The notes under the pieces: model-generated
Databases searched by the model: none
The model's input: the letters and a program-made list of their open reading frames with translations, nothing else
What the model was told of the DNA's origin: nothing
Source: Verrucomicrobiales bacterium
GTDB lineage: Bacteria > Verrucomicrobiota > Verrucomicrobiia > Verrucomicrobiales > DEV007
NCBI GenBank assembly: GCA_016795505.1
Contig: JAEUHH010000109.1
Location: 1 to 64,000 of the forward strand
Direction: 5' to 3'
DNA: 64,000 bases
Made by a program: the position numbers and the translations under genes
Shown here: positions 17,487 through 33,863 of the stretch, in pieces
How positions within the stretch are numbered: position 1 is the first letter of the stretch
How the letters are laid out: each line of letters begins with the position of its first letter

Positions 17487-18161
17487 TTGCGAACCGAATC
17501 GTCCGAAGTGCCACACACTCCGACGCCAGAATTTCCTGATACCCGGTTTACCCTGCTGCGTCGCCTGCCCGACGCTGCGGACTTCGAGGCGTGGCAAAAT
17601 TTCACGAAGGTCTATGTGCCCGTGATCTGTGCCTTCTACATGCACCGGGGCTGTCCCGCCGAGTCAGCCGCCGAGCTGACGAAGGCCGTCATGATCCGGG
17701 TGGCGGAGGAAATCGGCGAATTCATCCCGGTCGAGGGCGGCTCCGGCCGTTTCCGCGACTGGCTTTTCGTCCGGGTGATGGATGCTCTGACCGAACGACA
17801 TCCGGATCTGGCCGTGCTTCCATTCGAATCGCCGCCCTCGGCCGACAAACCGGCCACGCCCGCTTCGGAAGCCCGAAAACTCTGGGAGGAAGAATATCGC
17901 CGCCGGGCCTACCGACAGGCGGCCGATGAGATGCTGCAGGAACTGGGCGAGGGGAAAAACTGGGAGATTTTCCGCCGCACCATTTTGGAACAGGAGGATC
18001 CCGCCCAGGTGGCCACCGACCTGGGCATCACGCTCGGGTCCATCTACCTGACCCGCTCGCGGGTGCTGAATCGGATGCGGGAGCGGCTCGCCCAGATCGA
18101 GATCGACTGGGAATCGGGCGCCGCCAAATTGTCGGAAACCCTGGGGGAGGAACAGCCATGA
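17487..18161 (+). CDS. ECF-like RNA polymerase sigma factor
   Basis: 224 aa from a TTG start; a GTG at 17508 is an alternative and neither has a clear Shine-Dalgarno sequence. Residues ~25-75 fit a sigma region 2 helix bundle. The C-terminal QVATDLGITLGSIYLTRSRVLNRMRERL is a region 4 helix-turn-helix. It overlaps the kinase gene by 4 nt, the layout of PVC-phylum sigma/kinase pairs. It probably directs transcription of a small envelope- or stress-related regulon and is controlled by the kinase protein. Confidence 0.85.
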   Translation: MRTESSEVPHTPTPEFPDTRFTLLRRLPDAADFEAWQNFTKVYVPVICAFYMHRGCPAESAAELTKAVMIRVAEEIGEFIPVEGGSGRFRDWLFVRVMDALTERHPDLAVLPFESPPSADKPATPASEARKLWEEEYRRRAYRQAADEMLQELGEGKNWEIFRRTILEQEDPAQVATDLGITLGSIYLTRSRVLNRMRERLAQIEIDWESGAAKLSETLGEEQP

Positions 18162-20401
18162 GCGATCCGATCCCCACCGCGCAGACCCACCTCAGCGACG
18201 ACACGCTGCTGAGGATGCTGACCGCCCCGCTGAATCAGCCGGAGATCTCGGAAAGTTTCTGGGAGGTGCACCTTTCCGAATGCCCCCTGTGCCGGCAGCG
18301 GCTGGACCGGCTGGCGGACTCGGCCGGCGCGATGGGCCTCCTAGGACCGGTGGGCGGGATGCAGCAGATCGACCAGGTGGCCGCCCATCTGGTGGCCGAC
18401 AGCGTGACCTGGCTCACGGGCATGTCAGCCGGCAAGCCGGCTCTGGCCATGGTGGACGAGGATGGCATCCGCAATCTGCTGGGCGAGACAGGCTCGAAGG
18501 AACTGGGCCGGCTGGGGGGCATGAAGGTGGTGGAACTACTCGGCCAGGGTGGCATGGGCATCGTGCTGCGCGCCCACGACCGCGAGTTGCAGCGCGATGT
18601 GGCGGTGAAGATCCTGCACCCCGCCTATCGCGAGTCCGAGACGGTGCGCGACCGGTTCCGCCGCGAAGCGCGCGCCATCGCCGCCCTGACCCATGAGAAT
18701 GTGATCCCGATCCACCACGTGGCCGAGGACAAAGGGCTGCTGTATTTCGTCATGCCGCTGGCGGATCATTCGCTCTCCGACTGGCTGAAGAGCGAGGACG
18801 CGCCCAACTCAGAGGAGCGGCTCCGCATCGCCCTGGCCGCGGCCAAGGGGCTGTCGGCCGCGCACAAGGCGGGCATCATCCACCGGGACATCAAGCCGGC
18901 CAATCTGCTGATCCACGCCGGCATGCGCGACCCGAGCCAGCGGCTGGTCTGGCTGGCGGACTTCGGCCTGGCCCGGCGGGAGGATGAGTGCCAGTCCCGC
19001 GCCACGGGCGACGGCACGCCCGGCTTCGTGGCGCCGGAGATCGAAGCCGGCGGCGAATCCACCGCCCGATCGGATCTCTACAGTCTGGGTGTGCTCTACG
19101 AGACCCTTTTCCCCGAAGGTTGCATCAACCGCCCCACGGACCTGATCCGCCGCCTGAAAGCCTCCAAGCCGGCCGATCGTCCCGACGACGCGGCAGCCGT
19201 GGTGAGGGAACTGGAGAACCGGCTGAAGGCGGAGATGGAAAAGGTCGCCACCGACCGGCTGAAACGCCGCCTCTACCGAGCGGCCGCGGTCTTGGCCATC
19301 GTCTTCGGCCTGCCGACGGCCTTTGTGGTCGGCAGCGACCTGATCGCGGGCACCAACTGGGTCAACCGGGGGCTGGCAGCCCTGCACGGCCAGACGGTGT
19401 TTGCCATCAAGGGGCGGTTCGGCGTGAGTCGCGGTCTGCGGCTGATGCTCAACGAGACCCGCGACGGCGATGTCATCGAAGTGATCGGCACCCAGCCGAT
19501 CGAAGTGGCGCCCCTCATCCTGAAAGGCCGGACCATCACCCTGCGCGCCGCCGCCGGCCGCCTGCCCGGCCAGTCCCGTCCCACCCTGATGCTGGCGCCG
19601 GACTCGCTGGACTCGCTGATCTGGATCGACAACGGCACGCTGATCATCGACGGGCTGGAACTGCTCCAGCAGGTGGAGCATTCGACCCGGCGGCCGGGCT
19701 ACACGCTGTCGCCGCTGATCCGCATCGGGGGTGGCAATCTGACGATCCAGGACTCCATCATCCGCCGCACCGGCACCAGCCGGGGCTACCCGGCTTTCCT
19801 GGTGCTTTCGAGGATGGACGCGCCCCTGATCCGCATCGTCGACAGCATCCTGGAGGACGAGCACGGCATCTGCGTGGCCCGATCCAGTTTCAAGCCGGCC
19901 CCGCACGAGTCGATCGAGATTTCCAACTCGCGGTTCAACAGCCGCCGCTGGCTGTACATCGATCCGCCGGAGGAAGGGCGCGAATCGCCGTCCAACGTGA
20001 TCCCGGAGATTCATTTCGCGATTACCCAATCGGCTGTGAGGGCCGAAAGCGCGCTCACTCTGGGGAAACAGGCCGGCCCCGACCAGATCCGCATCGAACT
20101 GAACCTGGACAAGTGCCGCATCGAGACGTCGGGACCGGCTATCGTCTCCGGCATCGACAGCGTCGAATCGGTTCGCCGAGTGCTCTCGGTCCGGGACCGG
20201 GGAACCGTCCTGGCCAGCCCGCACACGGGGGTGATCCAACTCGCGGAAGACCTCTTCAGCCCGTTTCCGCCGATCAACGGTGACCCAGCCGCGGTGGAAG
20301 CCACGTGGCGCGGGCTGTTCGAGGGGCCGACCAATCAGTTCGAGGACACCCAGTGGGTCTCGCCGCCGATTTTCCAGTCACGCAGTCCGGAAGACTGGTG
20401 A
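18158..20401 (+). CDS. Ser/Thr protein kinase with N-terminal zinc anti-sigma-like motif and C-terminal sensor region
   Basis: 747 aa. HLSECPLC at 38-45 fits the HX3CX2C zinc motif of anti-sigma (ZAS) domains. The kinase domain spans ~121-350: GQGGMG loop, VAVK lysine at ~151, HRDIKPAN at ~242, DFGLAR at ~268 and APE. A membrane helix lies at ~372-396. About 350 residues follow with repeated short beta-strand patterns suggesting a right-handed beta-helix outside the membrane. The gene overlaps the sigma factor by 4 nt. I infer that the external domain senses a signal and the cytoplasmic part controls the sigma factor by binding or phosphorylation. Confidence 0.9.
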   Translation: MSDPIPTAQTHLSDDTLLRMLTAPLNQPEISESFWEVHLSECPLCRQRLDRLADSAGAMGLLGPVGGMQQIDQVAAHLVADSVTWLTGMSAGKPALAMVDEDGIRNLLGETGSKELGRLGGMKVVELLGQGGMGIVLRAHDRELQRDVAVKILHPAYRESETVRDRFRREARAIAALTHENVIPIHHVAEDKGLLYFVMPLADHSLSDWLKSEDAPNSEERLRIALAAAKGLSAAHKAGIIHRDIKPANLLIHAGMRDPSQRLVWLADFGLARREDECQSRATGDGTPGFVAPEIEAGGESTARSDLYSLGVLYETLFPEGCINRPTDLIRRLKASKPADRPDDAAAVVRELENRLKAEMEKVATDRLKRRLYRAAAVLAIVFGLPTAFVVGSDLIAGTNWVNRGLAALHGQTVFAIKGRFGVSRGLRLMLNETRDGDVIEVIGTQPIEVAPLILKGRTITLRAAAGRLPGQSRPTLMLAPDSLDSLIWIDNGTLIIDGLELLQQVEHSTRRPGYTLSPLIRIGGGNLTIQDSIIRRTGTSRGYPAFLVLSRMDAPLIRIVDSILEDEHGICVARSSFKPAPHESIEISNSRFNSRRWLYIDPPEEGRESPSNVIPEIHFAITQSAVRAESALTLGKQAGPDQIRIELNLDKCRIETSGPAIVSGIDSVESVRRVLSVRDRGTVLASPHTGVIQLAEDLFSPFPPINGDPAAVEATWRGLFEGPTNQFEDTQWVSPPIFQSRSPEDW

Positions 20402-22619: not shown

Positions 22620-24632
22620 GTGTCCGACCCAGCGCCCATCCACATCACCAGCTCCTCCGACCGACGGCCGGAGAGCGTCGCGGGCGCCGATCCGACCCTC
22701 GCTGAAAGCCGGAAAGCCGAGGCCGGCACCGGTCCCGCCCCGGCCCGGAAGTTTCCCGCCCCCATCCCGCCGAAGATCCTCGGCCAACTCACCGCGTTGC
22801 CGGAATCCGCCATCCTGCCCGCGACGCTGGAGGGCCTCACCAAGCTCCACGGCGGCTGGGGCTGCCTCCTTTACCAAGTCGAGGACGGCCTCGCCCTCGC
22901 CGCCTCCTCCCCCATCGGCGACGGGGCGCCGCCCGCTCCCGTCTGCACGCCGGTCACCATCGTGCCCGCCCAGACTCTCCGGGACCGCTATCACCAGGCC
23001 GCCGGCGAGCTGCTCCAACTCGCCTGCGAACCTGCCGCCCGCGAGGCCGTGGCCACCGGCGATTCCATCCTCGTCGAGACCGAGCTGGCCGGCCAGCGCT
23101 GCCTCGTCATCGCCTTGCCGGTCTATGAAGGCGGGGTCATCACCGGCTGTCTCTGCCGGGTCCACCCACCCAACCAGCGCGGCGAAGCCACCGCCATCGC
23201 CGGGCTCCAGCTCGCCGGCGTGCTGCGCGCCCTCTCCGCGTCCCGCTCCGAGACACACCGCATCCGGTCCCGATTCGGCAAAGTCGCGGCATTTGTGGAA
23301 CTGCTCGCCGCCGCGGAAGGCGGAGTCGATTTTGCCGAATGCGCCCGCCGCCTTGCCAACCATCTGCGCGAAGTGCTGGAGTGCGATACCGTGGCTCTCG
23401 CCGTCTGCGGCCGCCTCGGCACGCCGCGCCTCGCCGCTGTGTCGGGCGAGTCCGGCCCCGCCGAGACCCACACACCGGGCCGGCGCGCTCTGCTTGCTCA
23501 TCTCACCGAGGCGATCCACCGCCGCCAGCCGCTCGTCACGCGACGCCCCGGTGCCACTGGCCATGCCGCCTCACCCGACGCCGGATCGGAGGGCGCCGTG
23601 TCGCTGCGCGAGTGGTTCGATCCCGCCCTGTCGCTCTGCCTCCCGCTCATCGACGCCGCCGGACAGCTCCGCGGCGCGTGGATTTTCCTCTGGCGCGACG
23701 AGCCGGCCGATTTGGACGAAAAGCGCACCCTCATCCAGGCCGCCAGCCCCGAGGTCGCCCCGCTGCTTTCCCTGCTCCACCGGGCCAAGCCGGGCGCCGC
23801 CCTCGGTCCCGTGCTCCGGCTCTGGCAGCGCGGCACCCTCTCGCAGCGCCGCCTCGCCGCCGCCGGCATCGCCCTGCTGCTGCTGGCCGGCCTCATTCCC
23901 CTGCCCTATCCCGTCCGCGCCACCTGCGAATTGCAGCCCGTGGTGCGCCGCGTCATCGCCGCCCCGTTCGACGGCATTCTGGAGCGTTCCACCGTCCGGG
24001 CGGGGGAAAAAGTCACCGCGGGGCAGTTGCTCGCGGTCCTCGACGGCCGCGAAGTGCGCTCCCAATTGTCCGAAGCCATCGCCCGCCGCGAGCGGGCCCT
24101 GAAAGAGTCCGACCTCGCCCTCGCCCAGGACCGCGTCGCCGAAGCCCGCATGGCCGCCCACGAAGCCGACGGGCTCGGCCACGAGATCGAGCGCCTCGAA
24201 TATCGGCAGGCCCACCTCGAAATCCGATCCCCCATCGATGGCATCGTCCTCCAGGGCGATCTCGACCGATCCGAGGGCGCGCCGCTCCGTGTCGGCGATC
24301 CCCTGTTCGAAGTCGGCCCGCTCGACCGCCTCGTCGCCGAGATCGCCGTCGAAGCCACCGACATTTCCCTCGTCCGCCCCGGCGCTCCCGTCTCGTTGAA
24401 ACTGGAGTCCGCCGCCCGCACCACCCTGTCCAGCGAGATCAGCCACATCCCGCCGCGGTCCGAGTGGGTCGGCGAGTCGAATGTCTTCCTCTGCGAGGCG
24501 GAACTCCCCAATCCCGACGCCGAACTCCGCGCCGGCCTGAAGGGCAAATGCCGCGTCTCCGGCCCCCGTCGCCCGCTGCTCTGGATCTGGGCCCGCGATG
24601 CCTGGCTGGCGCTGCGCTACCGACTGTGGTGA
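22620..24632 (+). CDS. GAF-containing HlyD-like membrane fusion protein
   Basis: 670 aa, GTG start. Residues ~75-190 and ~225-385 look like GAF-type sensory folds. A single membrane helix lies at ~410-432. A HlyD-like part follows: lipoyl/barrel-sandwich motif APFDGILERSTVRAGEKV at ~448-467, a short helical hairpin at ~480-530, the second lipoyl half (IRSPIDGIVLQGD) and a beta-barrel at ~570-650. The GAF domains would sit in the cytoplasm and the adaptor in the periplasm, so this protein could couple a cytoplasmic signal to export. It heads the block with the M50 protease, TolC and SecA-like genes. Its stop lies at the start of repeat cluster C. Confidence 0.85.
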   Translation: MSDPAPIHITSSSDRRPESVAGADPTLAESRKAEAGTGPAPARKFPAPIPPKILGQLTALPESAILPATLEGLTKLHGGWGCLLYQVEDGLALAASSPIGDGAPPAPVCTPVTIVPAQTLRDRYHQAAGELLQLACEPAAREAVATGDSILVETELAGQRCLVIALPVYEGGVITGCLCRVHPPNQRGEATAIAGLQLAGVLRALSASRSETHRIRSRFGKVAAFVELLAAAEGGVDFAECARRLANHLREVLECDTVALAVCGRLGTPRLAAVSGESGPAETHTPGRRALLAHLTEAIHRRQPLVTRRPGATGHAASPDAGSEGAVSLREWFDPALSLCLPLIDAAGQLRGAWIFLWRDEPADLDEKRTLIQAASPEVAPLLSLLHRAKPGAALGPVLRLWQRGTLSQRRLAAAGIALLLLAGLIPLPYPVRATCELQPVVRRVIAAPFDGILERSTVRAGEKVTAGQLLAVLDGREVRSQLSEAIARRERALKESDLALAQDRVAEARMAAHEADGLGHEIERLEYRQAHLEIRSPIDGIVLQGDLDRSEGAPLRVGDPLFEVGPLDRLVAEIAVEATDISLVRPGAPVSLKLESAARTTLSSEISHIPPRSEWVGESNVFLCEAELPNPDAELRAGLKGKCRVSGPRRPLLWIWARDAWLALRYRLW

Positions 24633-24680
24633 TCGATCAAACAGGGTCCCTTCGACGATGCAACCCTCTTCCATCGGAAA
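24631..24680. repeat. Dispersed 22-bp repeat, cluster C, overlapping a start codon
   Basis: One direct unit (ATCAAACAGGGTCCC) and one inverted unit (GATGCAACCCTCTTCCATCG) fill the space between two genes. The inverted unit contains the ATG at 24658 and the first codons of the M50 fusion gene. Confidence 0.88.
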
Positions 24681-26883
24681 TCCCGACTATGCCGTGCGCG
24701 AGATCGAAGTCTCCGCGCCCCGCGTCCGTGCGGGCCTGCGGTGGACCTTCCAGCAGAGCGGCGGCGAGGGCGTCTACCTCCTCGAAGATCCCCTCCACGG
24801 CCGCTTTTTCCGCCTCGGCCGGCGCGAGCACCATTTCGTGAAATGCCTCGACGGCCGGCGCACCGTCGCCCAGATCGTCGCCGCCCTGTCCACCGGCGAT
24901 CGCGACCTCGCGATGGACTCGCAGGAGGCCACCTCGCTGGTCAGGATGCTCATCGACCACGGCCTCGTCAGCACCGGCGACAGCGACCACGCCGACCGCG
25001 TCTGGGACGAGGTGAACCGCCCCCAGGAATCAAAGCGCCTGCTCGGCCGGCTCGGCCAGATCCTTTTCCTGCGCGTGCCGCTCGGCAATCCCGACCGATT
25101 CTTCATCTGGCTGGCCCGCCACGCCGGCTGGCTCGCCAGTCCCGGCTTTGCCCTCGTCTGGCTGGTGGTCGTCATCGCCGGAGTCTTCGCCGTCGTCGAT
25201 CAGGCCGGGCGCTTCCGCGCCGAAATGTCCGGCGTCTTCCACGTGGGAAATCTGTGGATGCTCGGCGGCCTCTGGGTCGTGCTCAAGATCGTCCACGAGT
25301 GCTGGCACGGCCTCGTCTGCCGGCGACACGGCGGCGCCGTGCCCGAGGCGGGCGTCACCTTCCTGCTCCTCAGCACCCCGCTCGGCTACGTGAATGCCTC
25401 GTCGAGCGCGGCTTTTCCCTCCAAGTGGCAGCGCATCGCCGTCTCCGCCGCCGGCATGTATGGCGAGCTGCTCATCGCCGCCATCGCCGCCATCGCGTGG
25501 GCGCGGCTCGAGCCGGGACCGCTCAGCGCCGCCCTGCACCAGGTCATCGTCCTGTCCAGCGTGACGACCGTGCTGTTCAACGCCAATCCGCTGATGCGGT
25601 TCGACGGCTACTACATCCTCTCCGACCTGCTCGACATCCCCAATCTGGCCGGCAAAGGCCAGTCCGTGACCCGCTGGCTGCTCCGCCGCTGGCTGCTCGG
25701 GATGAAAAAGGCCCGTTTTCCCCTGCGCCCGGGCGAGCCCCGCTGGATCATCGGCCTCTACGGCGTCGCCGCCGCCGGTTGGCGCGTCCTCGTCACCATC
25801 GGCCTGCTCATCGGAGCCGCCCTGCTGTTCGAGGGGGCCGGACTGCTCCTCGCCCTCGTCGCCGCCGCTGCCATGGTGCTCCAGAGTCTTGCCGGAGCAT
25901 TAAAATATCTGAAAAAGTCCGCCACCGCCGAGGGACTCAGCCCCCTGCGGCTCACCGTGCGGCTCGCGCTCCTCACCGCCGCCGTCGGCGCCGCGATGGG
26001 GCTCATCCACATCACCCCCACCGCCTCCGCGCCCGCCGTGGTGCAGGAAGTCAGCGGCGGCGAAATCCGCGCCGAGTGCCCCGGCTTTCTCATCGACATC
26101 GCCGTGTCTGACGGCGCCCGGGTGGCGGCAGGTGACCTCCTTTTCCGGCTGGAAAATGCCGAGGAAACCGCCCAACTCCGGCGCATCGAGACCGAGATCG
26201 CCCGCAGCCGGCTCCGCGCCGCCCAGAGCCTCGCCGCCGGCCAGATCGCGGCTTCCCAGGCCGAAGAACGCAATCTCCAGGCCCTTGAAGAAACCGCCGC
26301 CGAGTTGCGCAATCACACCGCCACCCTGGAGCGCCGCGCGCCCCGAGCCGGCATCGTGCAGAGCCCCGGCCTCGACTCCCTGCAAGGCACTTGGATCGAG
26401 CCCGGGCGCCTCCTGATGACCATCGGCGCCGAGGACCGCAAGGAACTCGTCATCATGGCCGCGCAGGAGGACTGGCAGACCTTTGATGCCGCCCGCGCCA
26501 CCGGTCGTACCGTGACCTTCGTTCCCCGTCGGCGCTGGCACACCGCGCCAGCCACCATCCGCGTCGCCAACGCCAGCGCCACCACCCAGCCCTCCCATTT
26601 TGGCCTCATCACCCCCGGCGGAGGCCCGCTCACAGTCCGCGATCGGCCCGGCGGCGATCCCGAAGCCGCCACCAGTGCCGACGCTCTCTCCCGCTACGCC
26701 CTCGCCGCTCCCCGCTTTGAAATCCGCGCCGAGATCGCCGCTCCGGATGCGGCCGCCCTGCTCTCCGGCGAGCCCGGCACCCTCCTCGCCGCCGCCGCGG
26801 AACCGGAGACGCTCGCCTCCCTGAGCGCCAAAGCCCTGCGCCGTCAGCTCGACCGGCTTTGGGACACGGCCCGCACGCCTTGA
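24658..26883 (+). CDS. PqqD domain-M50 site-2-protease-HlyD fusion protein
   Basis: 741 aa. Residues ~30-105 resemble a PqqD/winged-helix peptide-binding domain. A multi-pass membrane region follows with the zinc protease motif HECWH at 213-217 and the second M50 motif NPLMRFDGYY at ~310. After more helices, a lipoyl-like adaptor begins near 460 (GGEIRAECPGFLIDIAVSDGARV), with a coiled-coil hairpin at ~500-560. It could recognise a peptide or substrate tail, cut it in the membrane and contact the export channel. The start codon lies inside repeat cluster C. An upstream in-frame ATG exists but would overlap the preceding gene. Confidence 0.87.
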   Translation: MQPSSIGNPDYAVREIEVSAPRVRAGLRWTFQQSGGEGVYLLEDPLHGRFFRLGRREHHFVKCLDGRRTVAQIVAALSTGDRDLAMDSQEATSLVRMLIDHGLVSTGDSDHADRVWDEVNRPQESKRLLGRLGQILFLRVPLGNPDRFFIWLARHAGWLASPGFALVWLVVVIAGVFAVVDQAGRFRAEMSGVFHVGNLWMLGGLWVVLKIVHECWHGLVCRRHGGAVPEAGVTFLLLSTPLGYVNASSSAAFPSKWQRIAVSAAGMYGELLIAAIAAIAWARLEPGPLSAALHQVIVLSSVTTVLFNANPLMRFDGYYILSDLLDIPNLAGKGQSVTRWLLRRWLLGMKKARFPLRPGEPRWIIGLYGVAAAGWRVLVTIGLLIGAALLFEGAGLLLALVAAAAMVLQSLAGALKYLKKSATAEGLSPLRLTVRLALLTAAVGAAMGLIHITPTASAPAVVQEVSGGEIRAECPGFLIDIAVSDGARVAAGDLLFRLENAEETAQLRRIETEIARSRLRAAQSLAAGQIAASQAEERNLQALEETAAELRNHTATLERRAPRAGIVQSPGLDSLQGTWIEPGRLLMTIGAEDRKELVIMAAQEDWQTFDAARATGRTVTFVPRRRWHTAPATIRVANASATTQPSHFGLITPGGGPLTVRDRPGGDPEAATSADALSRYALAAPRFEIRAEIAAPDAAALLSGEPGTLLAAAAEPETLASLSAKALRRQLDRLWDTARTP

Positions 26884-26962
26884 GCGACAGGCCGGTCTCT
26901 CATGGTGGAGGAAATCAGGCTTGCTTAATTATTGTTTTTATAGTAATTTTTATAAATTGAAG

Positions 26963-28882
26963 ATGTGTCCCCTCCCACAGCGACCTTCCCGCCGCCCATC
27001 CGCCCTCTTCGCGGCTCGGATTGCTATGGTCGGATCTCTCGCGGTGGCAGGGGCCGGCTGCCAGATTCCCAAGGACTTGAGCGTGTTGCAAGCAAGCGAT
27101 CCCGCCGATCCGGCCAGCGTCCGCCTCCCATCCACCCTCATCGGCGACACCTACACACCCGAGAGCAAAACCGAGAAATCGCTCGACACCGCCCTCCGTG
27201 AGCAGTCGGCCGATTATCTGGCCGATGCCGCCTCCGTCGGTGAGGGCGAAAAACGCTCCGATCTCGCCGAGGCCTTCGCCCGGTCCGGTGCCATCGCCCC
27301 TGAAAGCTGGTGGGCCGACGACACCGCCCGGCCCCTGCTCGCCCACACCGGAAAAGTGCTCCAACTTGATCTCGACGAGATCTACCGGCGCGCCCTCACC
27401 CATTCCAGCGAGGTCAAAGTCTATGCCGCCACCCCGCTCATCCGCGAGACTGCCATCGCCGAAGCCGAAGGCGAGTTCGACCCCGAACTTTTCACCGAAA
27501 CCCGTTACGACCGCAGCCACGAGCCCACCAGCTCCGTGCTCGAAGCCGGTGAGGACAATGAATTCCTCCGCCAGCGCGGCTGGACCAGCGAGTCCGGCGT
27601 CCGCAAACGCTTCCAGACCGGCACCAGCCTGTCCCTCTCTCAGGAGATCACGGAGCAAACGAGCAATTCCGACTACTTCAATCCCCGCGACCAGGGCCGC
27701 GGCCGGCTCAAACTCTCCGTGATGCAGCCCCTGCTCAACGGCGCCGGCACCGCCTACAACCGCTCCCTCATCCAGATCGCCAAGCTGGAAGCCGAGACCG
27801 GCTATGACGAATTCATCGGCCAGCTCGAAGAACACCTCATGGAGGTGAATCGCCAGTACTGGTCGCTCTACCTCGCCCGCGCGACTTATCTCGAAAAGAA
27901 ACGCCTCGTCGCCGACACCCAGACCATCGTCGACGAACTCGAAAGCCGCGGAAACCTCGACAGCATCGCCAGCCAGCGCTCCCGCGCCCGATCCGCCCTC
28001 GCCACCCGCAAGGCCGATCTCGTCCGGGCCGAACTCGCCATCAAAAATGCCGAGAGCCGGCTGCGCACCCTCGTCAATGACCCAGTTTTCGTCGATGACC
28101 GGATCGGCGAGATCGTCCCCGGCTCCCCGCCTATCGCCTCGGCCGTCGTTCCCGACTTCCGCCAGACCGTCACCGATGCCCTCACCCACCGGCCCGAGAT
28201 CCACATTGCCGAAAACTACCTCCGCGCCTCCGATCTGCGCCAGGGCATGGCCGCCAACGAGACCCGGCCCACCCTGAACCTCATCGGAGAGGTCGGCGCC
28301 TCCGCCATGCGCGGCGACGGCGATTGGTCAGGCGCCGTCGGCGACCAGTTCGACGATGTCGAGCCCACCTGGAGCGCCGGCGTCGTCGCCAGCCTGCCCT
28401 GGGGTCGCAAGACCGCCAAGGCACGCCTGCTCCGCTCCCAGCTGGAGGTGCGCCAGCGCCGCGATGCCCTGCGCTCCACCCTCGACCAGGTGCTGCTCGA
28501 GGTACAGATCGCCCACCGCGAAGTCGCCACCGCCTGGCCCGATGCCAAGGCAAAATGGGAAGCCGCCAAAGCCGCCGACCAGGAGCTCACCATGCTGCGC
28601 GACCGGCGCGAAGTCGAATCCGCCGAGTCCGGCACCACCCTCTATCTGGAGAAAGTCCTCGACGCGCAGGAGCGCCGCGCTCTCGCCCGCGAGGAATACC
28701 TGACCGCGCTCGTCGTTTACAATTCCGCCCTCACCAACCTCGACCGCGCCCGCGGCACCCTGCTCCAGGAGGAGACCATCGCCGTCGAGCGCACCGAGGA
28801 CGCCGCCGGCCTCCCCCTCGTCCAACTCGTCAAGCAGGAAGCCGCCGACGACGCCGTCAAAGCCTACGAGAACTTCAAGTGA
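26963..28882 (+). CDS. TolC-family outer-membrane efflux protein
   Basis: 639 aa from the ATG at 26963. The N-terminus has an Arg-rich segment and a hydrophobic stretch ending AGAGC at residue 33, probably a lipoprotein-type signal with a weak lipobox. The two repeated TolC halves are visible: long amphipathic helices, FDPELFTETRYDRS, and later QGMAANETRPTLNLIGEVG. This is longer than E. coli TolC, with an extra N-terminal region of ~100 residues. It would form the outer-membrane exit duct for the adaptor proteins encoded on either side. Repeat cluster D begins at its stop. Confidence 0.88.
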   Translation: MCPLPQRPSRRPSALFAARIAMVGSLAVAGAGCQIPKDLSVLQASDPADPASVRLPSTLIGDTYTPESKTEKSLDTALREQSADYLADAASVGEGEKRSDLAEAFARSGAIAPESWWADDTARPLLAHTGKVLQLDLDEIYRRALTHSSEVKVYAATPLIRETAIAEAEGEFDPELFTETRYDRSHEPTSSVLEAGEDNEFLRQRGWTSESGVRKRFQTGTSLSLSQEITEQTSNSDYFNPRDQGRGRLKLSVMQPLLNGAGTAYNRSLIQIAKLEAETGYDEFIGQLEEHLMEVNRQYWSLYLARATYLEKKRLVADTQTIVDELESRGNLDSIASQRSRARSALATRKADLVRAELAIKNAESRLRTLVNDPVFVDDRIGEIVPGSPPIASAVVPDFRQTVTDALTHRPEIHIAENYLRASDLRQGMAANETRPTLNLIGEVGASAMRGDGDWSGAVGDQFDDVEPTWSAGVVASLPWGRKTAKARLLRSQLEVRQRRDALRSTLDQVLLEVQIAHREVATAWPDAKAKWEAAKAADQELTMLRDRREVESAESGTTLYLEKVLDAQERRALAREEYLTALVVYNSALTNLDRARGTLLQEETIAVERTEDAAGLPLVQLVKQEAADDAVKAYENFK

Positions 28883-28945
28883 TCTCCGATCAGACCCTGT
28901 TTCATCGGAGATCATACCCTGTTCGATCGGAGATCATACCCTGTC
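28880..28945. repeat. Dispersed 22-bp repeat, cluster D
   Basis: Three units in the inverted orientation (ACCCTGT core) fill the whole gap between the TolC stop codon and the SecA-like start codon at 28946. Unit spacing is exactly 22 bp. Confidence 0.92.
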
Positions 28946-30943
28946 ATGTCAGCCACCGCCCCAGCCAGGAAGCCCCGCCGGTGGGAGACGCTGCGCGACC
29001 AGTATGCCCTCGACGGCTACCTCCACGCGCTCGGCCACCAGGCCGCCCGCCGGCTCCTGCCGCTCCCAACCGGCGACCGGCCGCACTGGGACGACCGGAC
29101 CAAGCTCGCCGCGATCCACTCCCTGGCCGACGAATTTGCCCGGCTCGATCTCGATCAGCTCCGCGCCCGCAGCCTGGCCCTGCGTGACCAGATCCAGGCC
29201 GGTCGCGGCCTCGGCGATCTCGTCGCGCCCGCCTTCGCCCTGGTGCGCGAGACCTCGCGACGCATCCTCGGGCTTTACCACTATGATGTGCAGCTCCTCG
29301 CCGGCCTCGCCATGTGCCGCGGCGGCATCGCCGAGATGGCCACGGGCGAGGGCAAGACGCTGGTGCAGTCTCTCGTCGCCTACACCTGGGCCCTGCCCGG
29401 CCGCGGCGTCCACGTGGCCACCGCCAACAGCTACCTCGCCGAGCGCGACCAGGAATTTTCCCGCGACCTCTTCGCCGCGCTCGGTCTGACCAGCGCCCTG
29501 CTCCCCGAAAAGACGCCCGGCCCCGCCAAACGAGCCGCCTATGCCGCGGATGTTACCTTCGGCACGGGCACGGAGTTCGGCTTCGACTATCTGCGCGATC
29601 AACTGGAGCGCTTCCGCCACGACCGGCCCCGGCTCGGCGAACGATTCGCCCGCGCCGCGCTCGGCCAGCCGCCGGTGGAGCGGGCCGGGCTTTCGCAGCG
29701 CGAACTGGCCTACGCCATCCTCGACGAAGCCGACAGCATCCTCATCGACGAAGCCACCACGCCGCTCGTCATCAGCCGCAAGGAGGAAGGACCGCACCGC
29801 CAGCCGGCGCCGTTCCTCGTCGCGAGGGCGGTGGCCGAGGCGCTCGCAGAGGGCACCGACTACACGCCGCCCGTATCGGGGCGACCCGTGCGGCTCACCG
29901 AAGCCGGCCGGGAACGCATCGCGGGCGGCGAATTTCCCGTGCCCTGGCAGGAGCTGCGCCGTCCGTGGCACAGGTATGTGGAAAACGCCCTCCAGGCCCG
30001 GCTGCGCTTCCAACTCGACGTCCACTATGTGATCCAGGATGGCAAGGCCGTCATCGTTGACGAGTTCACCGGCCGTGCCCGGCCCGAAAGCTCGTGGAAA
30101 GACGGCCTGCACCAAGCGGTCGAAGCCAAGGAGGGCCTCACCATCCAGTCGGAGTCGGATTCGGCAGCCAGCATCTCGCGACAGCGGTTTTACCGGCTCT
30201 ACGAGAACGTCTGCGGCATGACCGGCACCGCCATCGACTCGGCCGGGGAATTCTGGGAGGTGTTTCGGCTGCCCGTCGTCCCCATCCCGCGCAATAAGCC
30301 GGACCGCGGCGCCGTGTTGCCGACCCGGGTGTTCGTCTCCGAGCAGGCGAAGCTCTGGGCCGTGGTCCGCGACATCGCCGATCGCCGCCACCGCGGCCAG
30401 CCGGTGCTCGTCGGCACGCGGACCATCGGCAACAGCGAAAAGTTGTCCGCCCTGCTCACCGCCAGCGGCATCCCCCACCGCCTCCTCAATGCGCGGCAGG
30501 ATGCCGAGGAGGCCGCCATCGTCTCCGCCGCCGGCACGCCCGGCTCCGTCACCATCGCCACCAACATGGCCGGTCGCGGCACTCACATCACCCTCGGACC
30601 GGAAGCCCTCGAAGCCGGCGGCCTGCATGTCATCGCCCTGGAGATCGAGGAATCGCGCCGCATCGACCGCCAACTCACTGGACGGGCCGCCCGGCAGGGG
30701 CAGCCGGGCTCCTCGCAGGTGTTTTTGTCTGCCGACGATTTTGTGATCCGCCACTACGCCGCCGCCGAGGCCGAGCGTCTCGCCGCCAGCCGCAGCGACG
30801 ACCACGGCGAGGTCCTGCCCACGGGCCGCTGGCCGGAAATCTTCCGCCGAGCCCAGTTCCGCGCCGAAAAAACGCGCTACGAAGCCCGCCAGGGCCTGCT
30901 GCGGCACGATGACTGGCTCTCCGAGACCAAACGCCGGCTTTGA
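28946..30943 (+). CDS. Short SecA-like translocase ATPase
   Basis: 665 aa against about 900 for housekeeping SecA. Walker A MATGEGKTL is at 131-139, the DEAD box ILDEADSILIDEA at ~258-270, a preprotein-crosslinking-type region follows, then VDEFTGR at ~371-377. NBD2 has TNMAGRGTHI at ~539 (usually TDI) and GRAARQGQPGSS at ~579-590. The sequence ends soon after NBD2, so most of the helical wing and scaffold and the C-terminal zinc tail are missing. It is therefore an accessory motor, not the essential SecA. Its position between TolC and HlyD genes suggests it powers this export system. Confidence 0.9.
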   Translation: MSATAPARKPRRWETLRDQYALDGYLHALGHQAARRLLPLPTGDRPHWDDRTKLAAIHSLADEFARLDLDQLRARSLALRDQIQAGRGLGDLVAPAFALVRETSRRILGLYHYDVQLLAGLAMCRGGIAEMATGEGKTLVQSLVAYTWALPGRGVHVATANSYLAERDQEFSRDLFAALGLTSALLPEKTPGPAKRAAYAADVTFGTGTEFGFDYLRDQLERFRHDRPRLGERFARAALGQPPVERAGLSQRELAYAILDEADSILIDEATTPLVISRKEEGPHRQPAPFLVARAVAEALAEGTDYTPPVSGRPVRLTEAGRERIAGGEFPVPWQELRRPWHRYVENALQARLRFQLDVHYVIQDGKAVIVDEFTGRARPESSWKDGLHQAVEAKEGLTIQSESDSAASISRQRFYRLYENVCGMTGTAIDSAGEFWEVFRLPVVPIPRNKPDRGAVLPTRVFVSEQAKLWAVVRDIADRRHRGQPVLVGTRTIGNSEKLSALLTASGIPHRLLNARQDAEEAAIVSAAGTPGSVTIATNMAGRGTHITLGPEALEAGGLHVIALEIEESRRIDRQLTGRAARQGQPGSSQVFLSADDFVIRHYAAAEAERLAASRSDDHGEVLPTGRWPEIFRRAQFRAEKTRYEARQGLLRHDDWLSETKRRL

Positions 30944-30982
30944 CCCAATTTTGCCATCGCTTCCCAACCCATTCCGCCTCCC

Positions 30983-31822
30983 ATGAACCTCCGGACTCAC
31001 CTACCCACCCTGCTTGGCCTCCTCTTCGCCATCCTGACGCCGGCTCTCGCCGCTGAGGATGCCGCCCTCACCGGCGTCACCGAGCCGATGGAGCAGATCG
31101 ATCTCGCCTTTCCCGAACCGGGCGTGATCCGCACGGTCGATGTGAAGGAGGGCGACCTGGTCAAAAAGGATCAGGTCCTCGCCCAACTCGACTGCCGGGT
31201 GCTGGAAAGCCAACTAAAGATCGCCCGGATGAAGGCCGACAGCACCGCCGCCATCCAGTCCGCCAGCGCCACCCTGACGATGCGTCAGCAGCGCCATGAG
31301 CAATTGCAGCGCCTCGCCGCCAGCGACAATGCCAATGCCGATGAACTGGCCCGCGCCAAGGCTGAATTTGAGATCGCCCAGGCCGACCTGCAACTCGCCC
31401 ACGAAGCCGCCGCCGAGCACGCGCTCGAAGCCAGCCAGATCGAAGCCCAGATCGAGCAGCGCACCCTGCGCGCGCCTTTCGACGGGGTCGTCGCCCGCAT
31501 CGCCCGCGATCCCGCCGCCAGCGTCACGCCCAGCGACGGCCCCATCGTGTCTCTGGTTCAGTTGGACCGGCTGGACCTGGTCGTCCACGTCGATCACCGC
31601 CGCCTCGACAGCCTCGCCCAAGGGCGCGATCTGGCCGTGGAATCCCTCGACCGACGGGTCCAGGCCACGGCGCGGGTGGAGTTCATCAGCCCGGTCATCG
31701 ACCCCTCCAGCGGCACCGCCCGGGTGCGGCTCAGCCTGCCGAACGAGCAACGGCAGCACCTCAGCGGCGTGAAATACCGCGTCCTGCTGCCTCCCGGAGC
31801 CGTCGCCGGCACCGAACCGTGA
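30983..31822 (+). CDS. Periplasmic adaptor (HlyD/RND-type)
   Basis: 279 aa with a cleavable signal peptide (residues 1-24, ending ALAAED). The first lipoyl half is near 45 (DLAFPEPGVIRTVDVKEGD), a helical hairpin spans ~75-150, the second lipoyl half is RAPFDGVVARIARDPAASV, and a beta-barrel follows. It is short for the family. It starts 39 bp after the SecA-like gene and is the third adaptor-type protein of the block, perhaps forming a mixed periplasmic ring with the others. Confidence 0.88.
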   Translation: MNLRTHLPTLLGLLFAILTPALAAEDAALTGVTEPMEQIDLAFPEPGVIRTVDVKEGDLVKKDQVLAQLDCRVLESQLKIARMKADSTAAIQSASATLTMRQQRHEQLQRLAASDNANADELARAKAEFEIAQADLQLAHEAAAEHALEASQIEAQIEQRTLRAPFDGVVARIARDPAASVTPSDGPIVSLVQLDRLDLVVHVDHRRLDSLAQGRDLAVESLDRRVQATARVEFISPVIDPSSGTARVRLSLPNEQRQHLSGVKYRVLLPPGAVAGTEP

Positions 31823-31937
31823 AACCGGCCGGAACCGGTCAACCCACGCGAGAAATTGGGCAAATCGTGCGAAGTCCCTTGCGGCAGCATCGGCGAGAAT
31901 GACTCCGGTGTCGGATGTCCGGCTCCCGGAGACACAC

Positions 31938-32669
31938 ATGCGCAACAGGTTGATCAAACGGATGGATGAATTCCTCAGCTGCCGGCTGGCGGAGGAGCAT
32001 CCCCACGGTCGCCTGCGACAGCATGTCGAAAGGCCGGCCATCACCATCTCACGCGAAGCCGGCACGCGGGGATTGGAGATCGGGATGAAATTGGTCGATT
32101 ACCTCGATCAATTCGACGACACCGCCGAGCATGGCTGGGCGCTGTTTGACCAGAGCCTGCTCGCCCGCGTCATCGAGGAACGCCGCCTCCCCGACGTGGT
32201 ACCGGATTTTCCGAATCCCTTTTCCGCCACCGAGCCCCCGCTGAAGGCGGTGGAGGATCTCCAGGGCACCCGACCCGCGGACTGGACGCTGCGCGAACAC
32301 ACCATCCACTCCATCCGGCGCCTTTCCCGTCTGGGCAATGCCGTCATCCTCGGCCGCGGGGCGAATTTCATCACCCGCGATCTGCCGAATGTGTTTCACG
32401 TCCGTCTGGTCAGCTCCCGGCAGGAGCGCCTGACCGAAGTGCAGCAGTCACTCGGCCTTTCCGACGAGGAGGCTGCCGCCTGGGTGGAGTCGACCGACCG
32501 CGCCCGCGAGTCTTATGTCCGGCGTCACCTCGGCGCCCGCATTGACGACCCTGCCGCCTACCACCTGACCATCCACGCCGGCCGCCTGGAGGAGGATCGC
32601 ACCGCGCGACTCATCGGCGACGCCGTGATCGACTGGTTCTGTTCACGGTGCTTGACGGCGACCCTGTGA
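31938..32669 (+). CDS. Cytidylate-kinase-like protein
   Basis: 243 aa from the ATG at 31938, which has GGAG nearby; an ATG at 31899 is an alternative. AITISREAGTRGLEIG resembles the P-loop region of the cytidylate-kinase-like family (Cytidylate_kin2), and ILGRGANFI and the later Arg-rich helices fit too. The true substrate is unknown; the housekeeping Cmk has a canonical GxxGxGKS loop that this lacks. It lies 115 bp after the adaptor gene and may or may not belong to the same transcript. Confidence 0.75.
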   Translation: MRNRLIKRMDEFLSCRLAEEHPHGRLRQHVERPAITISREAGTRGLEIGMKLVDYLDQFDDTAEHGWALFDQSLLARVIEERRLPDVVPDFPNPFSATEPPLKAVEDLQGTRPADWTLREHTIHSIRRLSRLGNAVILGRGANFITRDLPNVFHVRLVSSRQERLTEVQQSLGLSDEEAAAWVESTDRARESYVRRHLGARIDDPAAYHLTIHAGRLEEDRTARLIGDAVIDWFCSRCLTATL

Positions 32670-32690: not shown

Positions 32691-33863
32691 ATGGACGCCA
32701 CCCATCCCGATGCCCATCTCCGCCTCGTCGAGGCCGCTCTGCGCCGCCGCGCCAGCGACATCCACATCGATCCCCTCCTCGACGGCTATCAGATCCGCCT
32801 GCGCATCGACGGTCTGCTGACGACAACCGATCACCTAAGCACTGACACCGGACACCGGCTGATCAATCAGTTCAAGACGGCCGCCGGCATCGAGCCGGGC
32901 ACGGCCTTCACCCCGCTCGGCGCCCGAAAAAAGCTCACGGCGGAGGGCCGGCCGATCGATTGCCGCATCACGCTGGCGCCGTGCATCAGCGGGCCGAAGC
33001 TGGCCGTCCGCCTGCTGGATCCCGATCGCCTCCGCCACCGCGTCACCGACCTCGGACTGCGTGAATCGGGGCTGGAGCGCTTCCACCGTTGGCTCACCAC
33101 GCTGAATGGCATGTTTCTCGTCACTGGTCCCACCGCCAGCGGCAAGACCACCACGCTCTACGCCCTGCTCCACGAACTCGCCGCCGAGCACCGGCATATC
33201 GTCTCCATCGAAGACCCGGTGGAGTACGAGATCGACGGCATCAACCAGATCCAGGTCGATCACCGGCACGGCATCGATTTTGCCGAAGGCCTGCGGACCA
33301 TCCTGCGCCTCGATCCCGACCACGCCATGATCGGCGAGTTGCGCGATCCCGATGCCGCCCAGGCCGCGGTCGCCGCTGCCGTCGCCGGCCGGGTCATCCT
33401 CGCCACGCTGCACGCCCGCGATGCTGTCAGCGCGGTGACGGCCCTGCGCAATTTCGGCCTCGCCGACCACCAGATCGCCACCGCCCTCGCCGTGGTGGTC
33501 AACCAGCGACTGGTGAGACGGCTCTGCGCCGAGTGCCGGCAACCCGCCAGTCTCACGCCTGCCGAAATCGAGTGGCATGATCGCCACCGCCTGCGCCAGC
33601 CATCCACCGCCTGGCGGGCGACCGGTTGCACGGCCTGCGAGGGCTCGGGCTACCACGGACGCACCGGCCTGTTCGAAGTCTGGCACGTGGATCGCGCCGA
33701 CTACGAGATGCTGCTCGCCGGAGCCGATGAGGAGACCCTGCGCCGGCACCTCGATGCCGAGGGACACACCGATCTGTGGGAGGATGCGACCGCCAAGATC
33801 GAAGCCGGCATCACGACCCACGCCGAAGTGCAGCGACTCGGTCTCAGCCTACCCTGGGAGTGA
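32691..33863 (+). CDS. GspE/PilT-type secretion ATPase, short and orphan
   Basis: 390 aa. SDIHIDP and RIDGLL at the N-terminus, Walker A GPTASGKTTT at ~145, the Asp box IEDPVEYEI, Walker B MIGELRDPDAAQ and the tetracysteine CAEC ... CTAC are all present. The long N1 domain of GspE/PilB is missing. No pilin, platform or secretin gene is in the window. It may energise a pilus or type II system encoded elsewhere, or contribute to the export block upstream. The stop codon overlaps repeat cluster E. Confidence 0.9.
   Translation: MDATHPDAHLRLVEAALRRRASDIHIDPLLDGYQIRLRIDGLLTTTDHLSTDTGHRLINQFKTAAGIEPGTAFTPLGARKKLTAEGRPIDCRITLAPCISGPKLAVRLLDPDRLRHRVTDLGLRESGLERFHRWLTTLNGMFLVTGPTASGKTTTLYALLHELAAEHRHIVSIEDPVEYEIDGINQIQVDHRHGIDFAEGLRTILRLDPDHAMIGELRDPDAAQAAVAAAVAGRVILATLHARDAVSAVTALRNFGLADHQIATALAVVVNQRLVRRLCAECRQPASLTPAEIEWHDRHRLRQPSTAWRATGCTACEGSGYHGRTGLFEVWHVDRADYEMLLAGADEETLRRHLDAEGHTDLWEDATAKIEAGITTHAEVQRLGLSLPWE

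Follow-up and report, generated by a model that had tools for sequence, protein, structure and literature searches.

A short SecA, an M50-HlyD fusion and a TolC channel in one gene set of a Verrucomicrobiales-like genome: a candidate exporter of LEPR-XLL giant surface proteins

The window, i.e. the whole stretch of 64,000 nucleotides analysed here, belongs to a Verrucomicrobiales-like genome and contains an operon-like run of five genes on the + strand. Taking the likely starts, the intergenic gaps measure 25-79 bp. The genes are:

22620..24632, + strand: GAF-HlyD1, with a cytoplasmic GAF-like part, a membrane helix at residues ~412-430 and a periplasmic MacA-like adaptor
24658..26883, + strand: PqqD(RRE)-M50-HlyD, with a leader-binding-type domain, an RseP-like protease core and a MacA/MexA-like adaptor
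26963..28882, + strand: TolC/OEP outer-membrane channel, probable lipoprotein
28946..30943, + strand: short SecA, with NBD1, preprotein-binding domain and NBD2, lacking the scaffold, wing and finger domains
30983..31822, + strand: HlyD2, a periplasmic HlyD/RND-type adaptor with signal peptide

The first-pass annotation had described a hybrid of a type I-like conduit and a SecA-like ATPase with neither ABC nor RND pump, and this description is borne out: all five genes are present, and tblastn with one query per pump type detected no ABC or RND gene in the window. A cytidylate-kinase-like gene (31899-32669) and a GspE/PilT-type (T2SSE) ATPase gene (32691-33863) follow the module at short gaps. 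Since the order module, kinase, T2SSE ATPase is kept only in two genomes of the same genus (L041, L042), both genes were left out of the module. At 17487-20401 of the window, a small regulator-like ORF (224 aa) precedes a gene for a Ser/Thr kinase whose C-terminal part is long, and overlaps it by a few bases; no link between this pair and the export module was seen.

The longest ORF of the M50 gene spans 24598-26883, with the ATG at 24658 as the more likely start, and its nearest named relatives occur in Verrucomicrobiales MAGs (60-62% identity). The protein was annotated from its letters as an M50 protease that has intact active-site motifs and to which a PqqD-like domain and an adaptor are joined, and each part is matched. 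The motifs HECWH (residue 233) and NPLMRFDGYY (residue 330) are intact, and the HExxH residues together with N328, N330, P331, L332, D336 and Y338 are invariant in an alignment of 45 homologues. The structure model (pLDDT 87) is composed, in this order, of a PqqD/RRE-like domain, a site-2 protease core and a MacA/MexA-like adaptor (Z about 15). Its residues 39-126 align to 6jx3_B, the structure of a lasso-peptide B1 protein together with its leader (Z 10.2, rmsd 2.8, 82 residues), and the protease core aligns to RseP 7w6y (Z 11.2, rmsd 2.8, 130 residues); both matches come from a second aligner, the top Foldseek rows containing adaptor matches only. The PqqD domain PF05402 is matched in 8 of 15 homologues. 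The model suggests about seven membrane spans, with the PqqD part inside, the adaptor outside, and the HExxH and second NPL...DG motifs of the site-2 protease in membrane helices. Among NCBIfam models, the one closest to the M50 part describes a maturation protease of daptides (RiPP).

GAF-HlyD1 matches HlyD_3 (E=2e-17). Its GAF part has no Pfam match in the window protein, and a paralogue in the same genome (L011) matches PF01590 weakly (E=8e-4, under the family cut-off). The model, built on a thin alignment (pLDDT 72), is GAF-like inside, crosses the membrane with a single helix and is MacA-like outside; it aligns with solved GAF domains at Z about 11. The TolC/OEP gene has its longest ORF from 26921, a likely start at 26963 and its end at 28882. 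TolC and HlyD2 carry ordinary lipoprotein-type or signal sequences, and the lipobox-like LAVAGAGC in TolC probably marks it as a lipoprotein.

The short SecA (665 aa) matches SecA_DEAD (E=3e-90), PP_bind (E=3e-21) and P-loop_SecA (E=8e-52), and the domain search found no SecA_SW. Aligned with E. coli and Priestia SecA, it breaks off in the opening stretch of the helical scaffold, at about residue 608 of B. subtilis SecA, and lacks the wing and C-terminal parts, as the first-pass annotation had noticed. All ATPase motifs (Walker A, DEAD, TNMAGRG, arginine finger) are intact and the preprotein cross-linking domain is kept. Across phyla the short SecA falls into one size class of mostly 600-790 aa. 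The housekeeping SecA of this genome is a separate protein of about 1,057 aa on contig C38. In a tree of 92 SecA sequences, midpoint-rooted for display only, the 13 full-length or SecA2-type proteins, the housekeeping copy of this genome among them, group together with support 1.0, and the short SecAs linked to the module all fall outside this clade.

The same genome possesses a second, more distant paralogous set, split across two contigs, with a short SecA and HlyD2 on C56 (L005; 8113-10239 listed) and a GAF-HlyD and M50-HlyD on C55 (L011; 8603-12912 listed). DUF4407 and ClpB-like genes adjoin the short SecA on C56. Three short-SecA clades in Verrucomicrobiota relatives adjoin TolC, HlyD2, GAF-HlyD and M50-HlyD in varying combinations. 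A scan of the species-genome collection with the M50 alignment retained 80 M50-HlyD loci from Verrucomicrobiota, Planctomycetota, Gammaproteobacteria, Desulfobacterota, Chlorobi, Bacteroidota, Elusimicrobia, Spirochaetes, Fibrobacter, Kiritimatiellae, Burkholderiales and Methylobacterium. Partners found nearby are GAF/HlyD1 (73/80), HlyD2 (57/80), short SecA (39/80) and TolC (28/80), many of these loci being cut by contig ends; any ABC match occurs in seven loci and an RND match in none. The five genes are not a chance cluster, because the same partners are found together again in three Verrucomicrobiota clades and many other phyla; a scattering of the genes in relatives, which would have spoken against one machine, is not observed. 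A small DUF3467 gene lies directly before the GAF-HlyD gene in L074 (11693-12013), L076 (10742-11047), L077 (11812-12093) and L080 (7641-7985), and also in five of the 80 loci. Alphaproteobacterial copies have it after a giant gene, often between giant and module, and its product is a possible cargo chaperone.

The giant genes in question encode proteins of the LEPR-XLL family (NCBIfam NF012209). On annotated alphaproteobacterial plasmids the module directly follows a gene of 26-39 kb, and NF012209 matches near the N-terminus of all four plasmid giants whose start was read. In the 80 loci, LEPR-like motifs stand at ORF N-termini 17 times at a distance of up to 10 kb from M50, as compared with 0.4 expected. 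Giants directly adjoin the short SecA in six genomes (G001, G003, G012, G023, G038 and G051) and lie near M50 in several Burkholderiales and Hyphomicrobiales, which bears out an earlier surmise that a related layout may occur near giant adhesins. The window's genome contains 12 LEPR-XLL frames over the curated cut-off of NF012209, up to 5,858 aa long; on the module's own contig no LEPR-XLL gene was found.

Presence and absence agree in three separate samples, with p-values that are too small throughout, the genomes being related. Among Verrucomicrobiota relatives, LEPR-XLL proteins occur in 22/23 genomes with a short SecA vs 3/34 without (p=1e-11). The 199 Hyphomicrobiales genomes (LEPR-XLL threshold E<1e-4) contain them in 6/6 cases with class I M50-HlyD vs 0/193 without (p=1e-11), and the 300 Burkholderiales genomes (E<=1e-3) in 26/29 vs 4/271 (p=5e-30). 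The cut between class I and class II M50-HlyD was drawn after a score gap had been seen; when class II is also counted as positive, the association stays (p=1e-25 in Burkholderiales, 4e-8 in Hyphomicrobiales). Weak matches in Hyphomicrobiales (E 0.001-0.05), for the most part in short frames, resemble chance background and were left out of the count. LEPR-XLL proteins are found in 36 of 45 M50-HlyD genomes from many phyla, and one of 14 control genomes passes the cut-off. The case for LEPR-XLL giant surface proteins as cargo of the module is strong but correlational, all links being of a genomic nature.

The leaders of the 12 frames in the window's genome are nearly identical, with the consensus ALEPRVLFSGAPVE preceded by a short stretch rich in basic residues. 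Their form is [IL]EPR[IVT]LFS[GA]AP, usually 15-55 residues from the start. G, T, A and S abound in the LEPR frames read, which are acidic and contain 0-3 Cys per 1,200-6,500 residues. None of the LEPR proteins read has a hydrophobic Sec-type signal peptide, the best mean hydropathy over 12 residues being 0.3-1.5. Four of the five scanned contain FG-GAP, bacterial Ig, cadherin, Calx-beta, NIDO or DUF4347 domains. By analogy with large adhesins, this composition and these domains would fit unfolded export and a surface function. An open LEPR-XLL frame of 18,596 aa belongs to a relative (G027:C8:85805-85858, L195), and frames of 17,246 aa and 18,012 aa occur in G087 and G085.

Not all genomes with giants possess a short SecA. 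Class II M50-HlyD proteins (profile E about 1e-85 to 1e-120) are encoded near the genes of LEPR-XLL giants in five genomes whose only SecA is the housekeeping one (G389, G520, G530, G121 and G123; L198-L202). Their loci carry an HlyD protein and, in those checked, an OEP protein. Further SecA-less cases are G060, G064 and G077. The short SecA is therefore not needed for LEPR proteins everywhere, and in LEPR-XLL genomes with M50-HlyD but only a housekeeping SecA, either the latter serves or another motor exists.

The gene set itself has been known since 2015, contrary to the first-pass annotation, whose view of a type I-like hybrid with an M50 fusion and a possible tie to giant adhesins holds, while its assumption that no such set had been characterised does not. 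Kamneva, Poudel and Ward 2015 (PMC4452313) described a secondary SecA_DEAD locus with HlyD/M50, GAF-HlyD and OEP, suggested that the SecA_DEAD protein is the ATPase and that M50 might be the pore, and called the broader role of the locus 'completely unknown'. META1p2399-2402 of Methylobacterium extorquens AM1 is among the loci that this paper names. Its main text does not mention PqqD, DUF3467 or cadherin, and no cargo is given. The module in the window shares with that locus a SecA_DEAD protein that lacks SecA_SW and stands apart from the canonical SecA, M50-HlyD and GAF-HlyD as neighbours (GAF by fold and the weak paralogue match, not by Pfam on the window protein), a further HlyD, an OEP, which is present only sometimes in the 2015 loci, and the lack of an ABC gene in the locus (one ABC query). 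The cargo assignment, the leader motif, the RRE and RseP modelling, additional phyla and the SecA-less variants are added here. No other description of the gene set was found in the open-licence literature, and later work elsewhere is possible; nor does the open-licence literature found to mention NF012209, itself an annotation family, give an exporter for LEPR-XLL proteins.

Type I secretion (HlyB/LapB-HlyD-TolC, giant adhesins) resembles the module in its conduit of adaptor, i.e. membrane fusion protein, and TolC-family channel, and in its long, repeat-rich, Cys-poor cargo. It differs in its ABC exporter, in the place of which the module has a SecA-like ATPase, and the proposed cargo bears an N-terminal signature. 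Because an ABC exporter is lacking (none in the locus, and no LapB-type ABC over cut-off in the genome, where LapB was the only T1SS ABC subfamily searched), assignment to type I secretion proper was rejected. With SecA2/accessory Sec systems the module shares a second SecA besides the housekeeping one; here, however, scaffold, wing, finger and C-tail are missing, HlyD and TolC genes are linked, and no SecY2 was seen near the module. The RRE/PqqD proteins of RiPP systems (lasso peptide B1 protein, daptide metalloprotease) share the PqqD-like domain and an M50 core near the daptide protease model, whereas here both are fused to a membrane-fusion adaptor and the proposed cargo is thousands of residues long.

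The gene set with its intact active sites and domain architecture, the linkage and co-occurrence with LEPR-XLL proteins and the split from housekeeping SecA, all of them sequence features, are consistent with an exporter that spans the envelope and is dedicated to very large surface proteins with an N-terminal LEPR-XLL leader, a reading to which we assign a probability of about 0.7. The functional steps, above all motor action, leader cleavage and the inner-membrane pore, we infer as follows. The leader is predicted to be bound by the cytoplasmic PqqD/RRE-like domain of M50-HlyD. The short SecA, with its intact ATPase and substrate-clamp domains, would feed the unfolded, nearly Cys-free chain outward by ATP hydrolysis, through a conduit that may consist of the membrane-anchored M50-HlyD and GAF-HlyD, the periplasmic HlyD2 and the TolC lipoprotein. 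The M50 site-2 protease would trim the leader during or after passage, and the GAF part may regulate the process. Candidates for the inner-membrane pore are an M50 assembly or SecYEG. It counts against the exporter reading that the two-helix finger and the wing, with which SecA works on SecYEG, are absent from the short SecA and that the module encodes no known pore.

The exporter may even be a separate secretion type, widespread in diderm bacteria and hitherto lacking an assigned cargo: a SecA devoid of its wing would drive LEPR-XLL giants, up to about 18,000 residues long, in one step through an M50/HlyD/TolC conduit, while the RRE reads the leader and the site-2 protease cuts it off. This stronger version is tentative, and we would not quite lay even odds on it.

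A two-step variant is unlikely, though it deserves serious weight: cargo would cross the inner membrane through SecYEG, assisted by the short SecA in the manner of a SecA2, and the HlyD/TolC part would do no more than move it from the periplasm to the outside. The short SecA is a clear SecA relative that retains the preprotein-binding domain, and the genomes combining LEPR giants with housekeeping SecA only would fit if SecYEG were the pore throughout. On the other hand, the scaffold, wing and two-helix finger by which a SecA2 engages SecYEG or SecY2 are missing from the short SecA, and the LEPR leaders lack a Sec-type hydrophobic stretch.

It is distinctly improbable that LEPR-XLL is a processing or anchoring tag of giants that exit otherwise, the role of the M50-HlyD module being confined to their maturation or attachment at the envelope. 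An intact site-2 protease with an RRE-like domain would suit processing, and the SecA-less variants exist; yet TolC, up to three adaptors and an ATPase amount to a conduit, which is more than a protease, and the lack of a LapB-type ABC over the cut-off in this genome also argues against such a tag. Export of something else, e.g. a small modified peptide, with LEPR giants merely sharing surface-rich genomes, would accord with the proximity of the M50 part to the daptide protease model, but is very improbable in view of the giants physically linked to the module in several phyla and the near-exact match of presence and absence in two proteobacterial orders. That the short SecA is a decayed copy of the housekeeping protein, with unrelated efflux genes next to it, would account for the missing C-terminal third, but the probability of this is negligible, the intact ATPase motifs, single length class across phyla, separate tree branch (no short SecA groups with housekeeping SecA) and conserved neighbours speaking against it; the SecA tree and the conserved neighbourhood rule out both this and a chance cluster.

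Under the exporter reading it is the substrate assignment that is new, and an uncharacterised gene set of 2015 becomes an exporter that can be tested, for which both a class of cargo and a recognition tag are named. If correct, it would explain how proteins of 5,000-18,000 residues are exported in many phyla with neither an ABC pump nor a Sec signal; SecA would gain a second kind of job, and the LEPR-XLL tag would allow the cargo of any genome to be listed. The reading further suggests that one machine comprises many of the proteins entered in public genomes as 'SecA', 'prepilin peptidase' or 'efflux adaptor'. The RefSeq name of the short SecA is the misleading 'prepilin peptidase' in L074 (16171-18087) and L078 (17083-19107), and elsewhere the protein is named 'DEAD/DEAH box helicase'.
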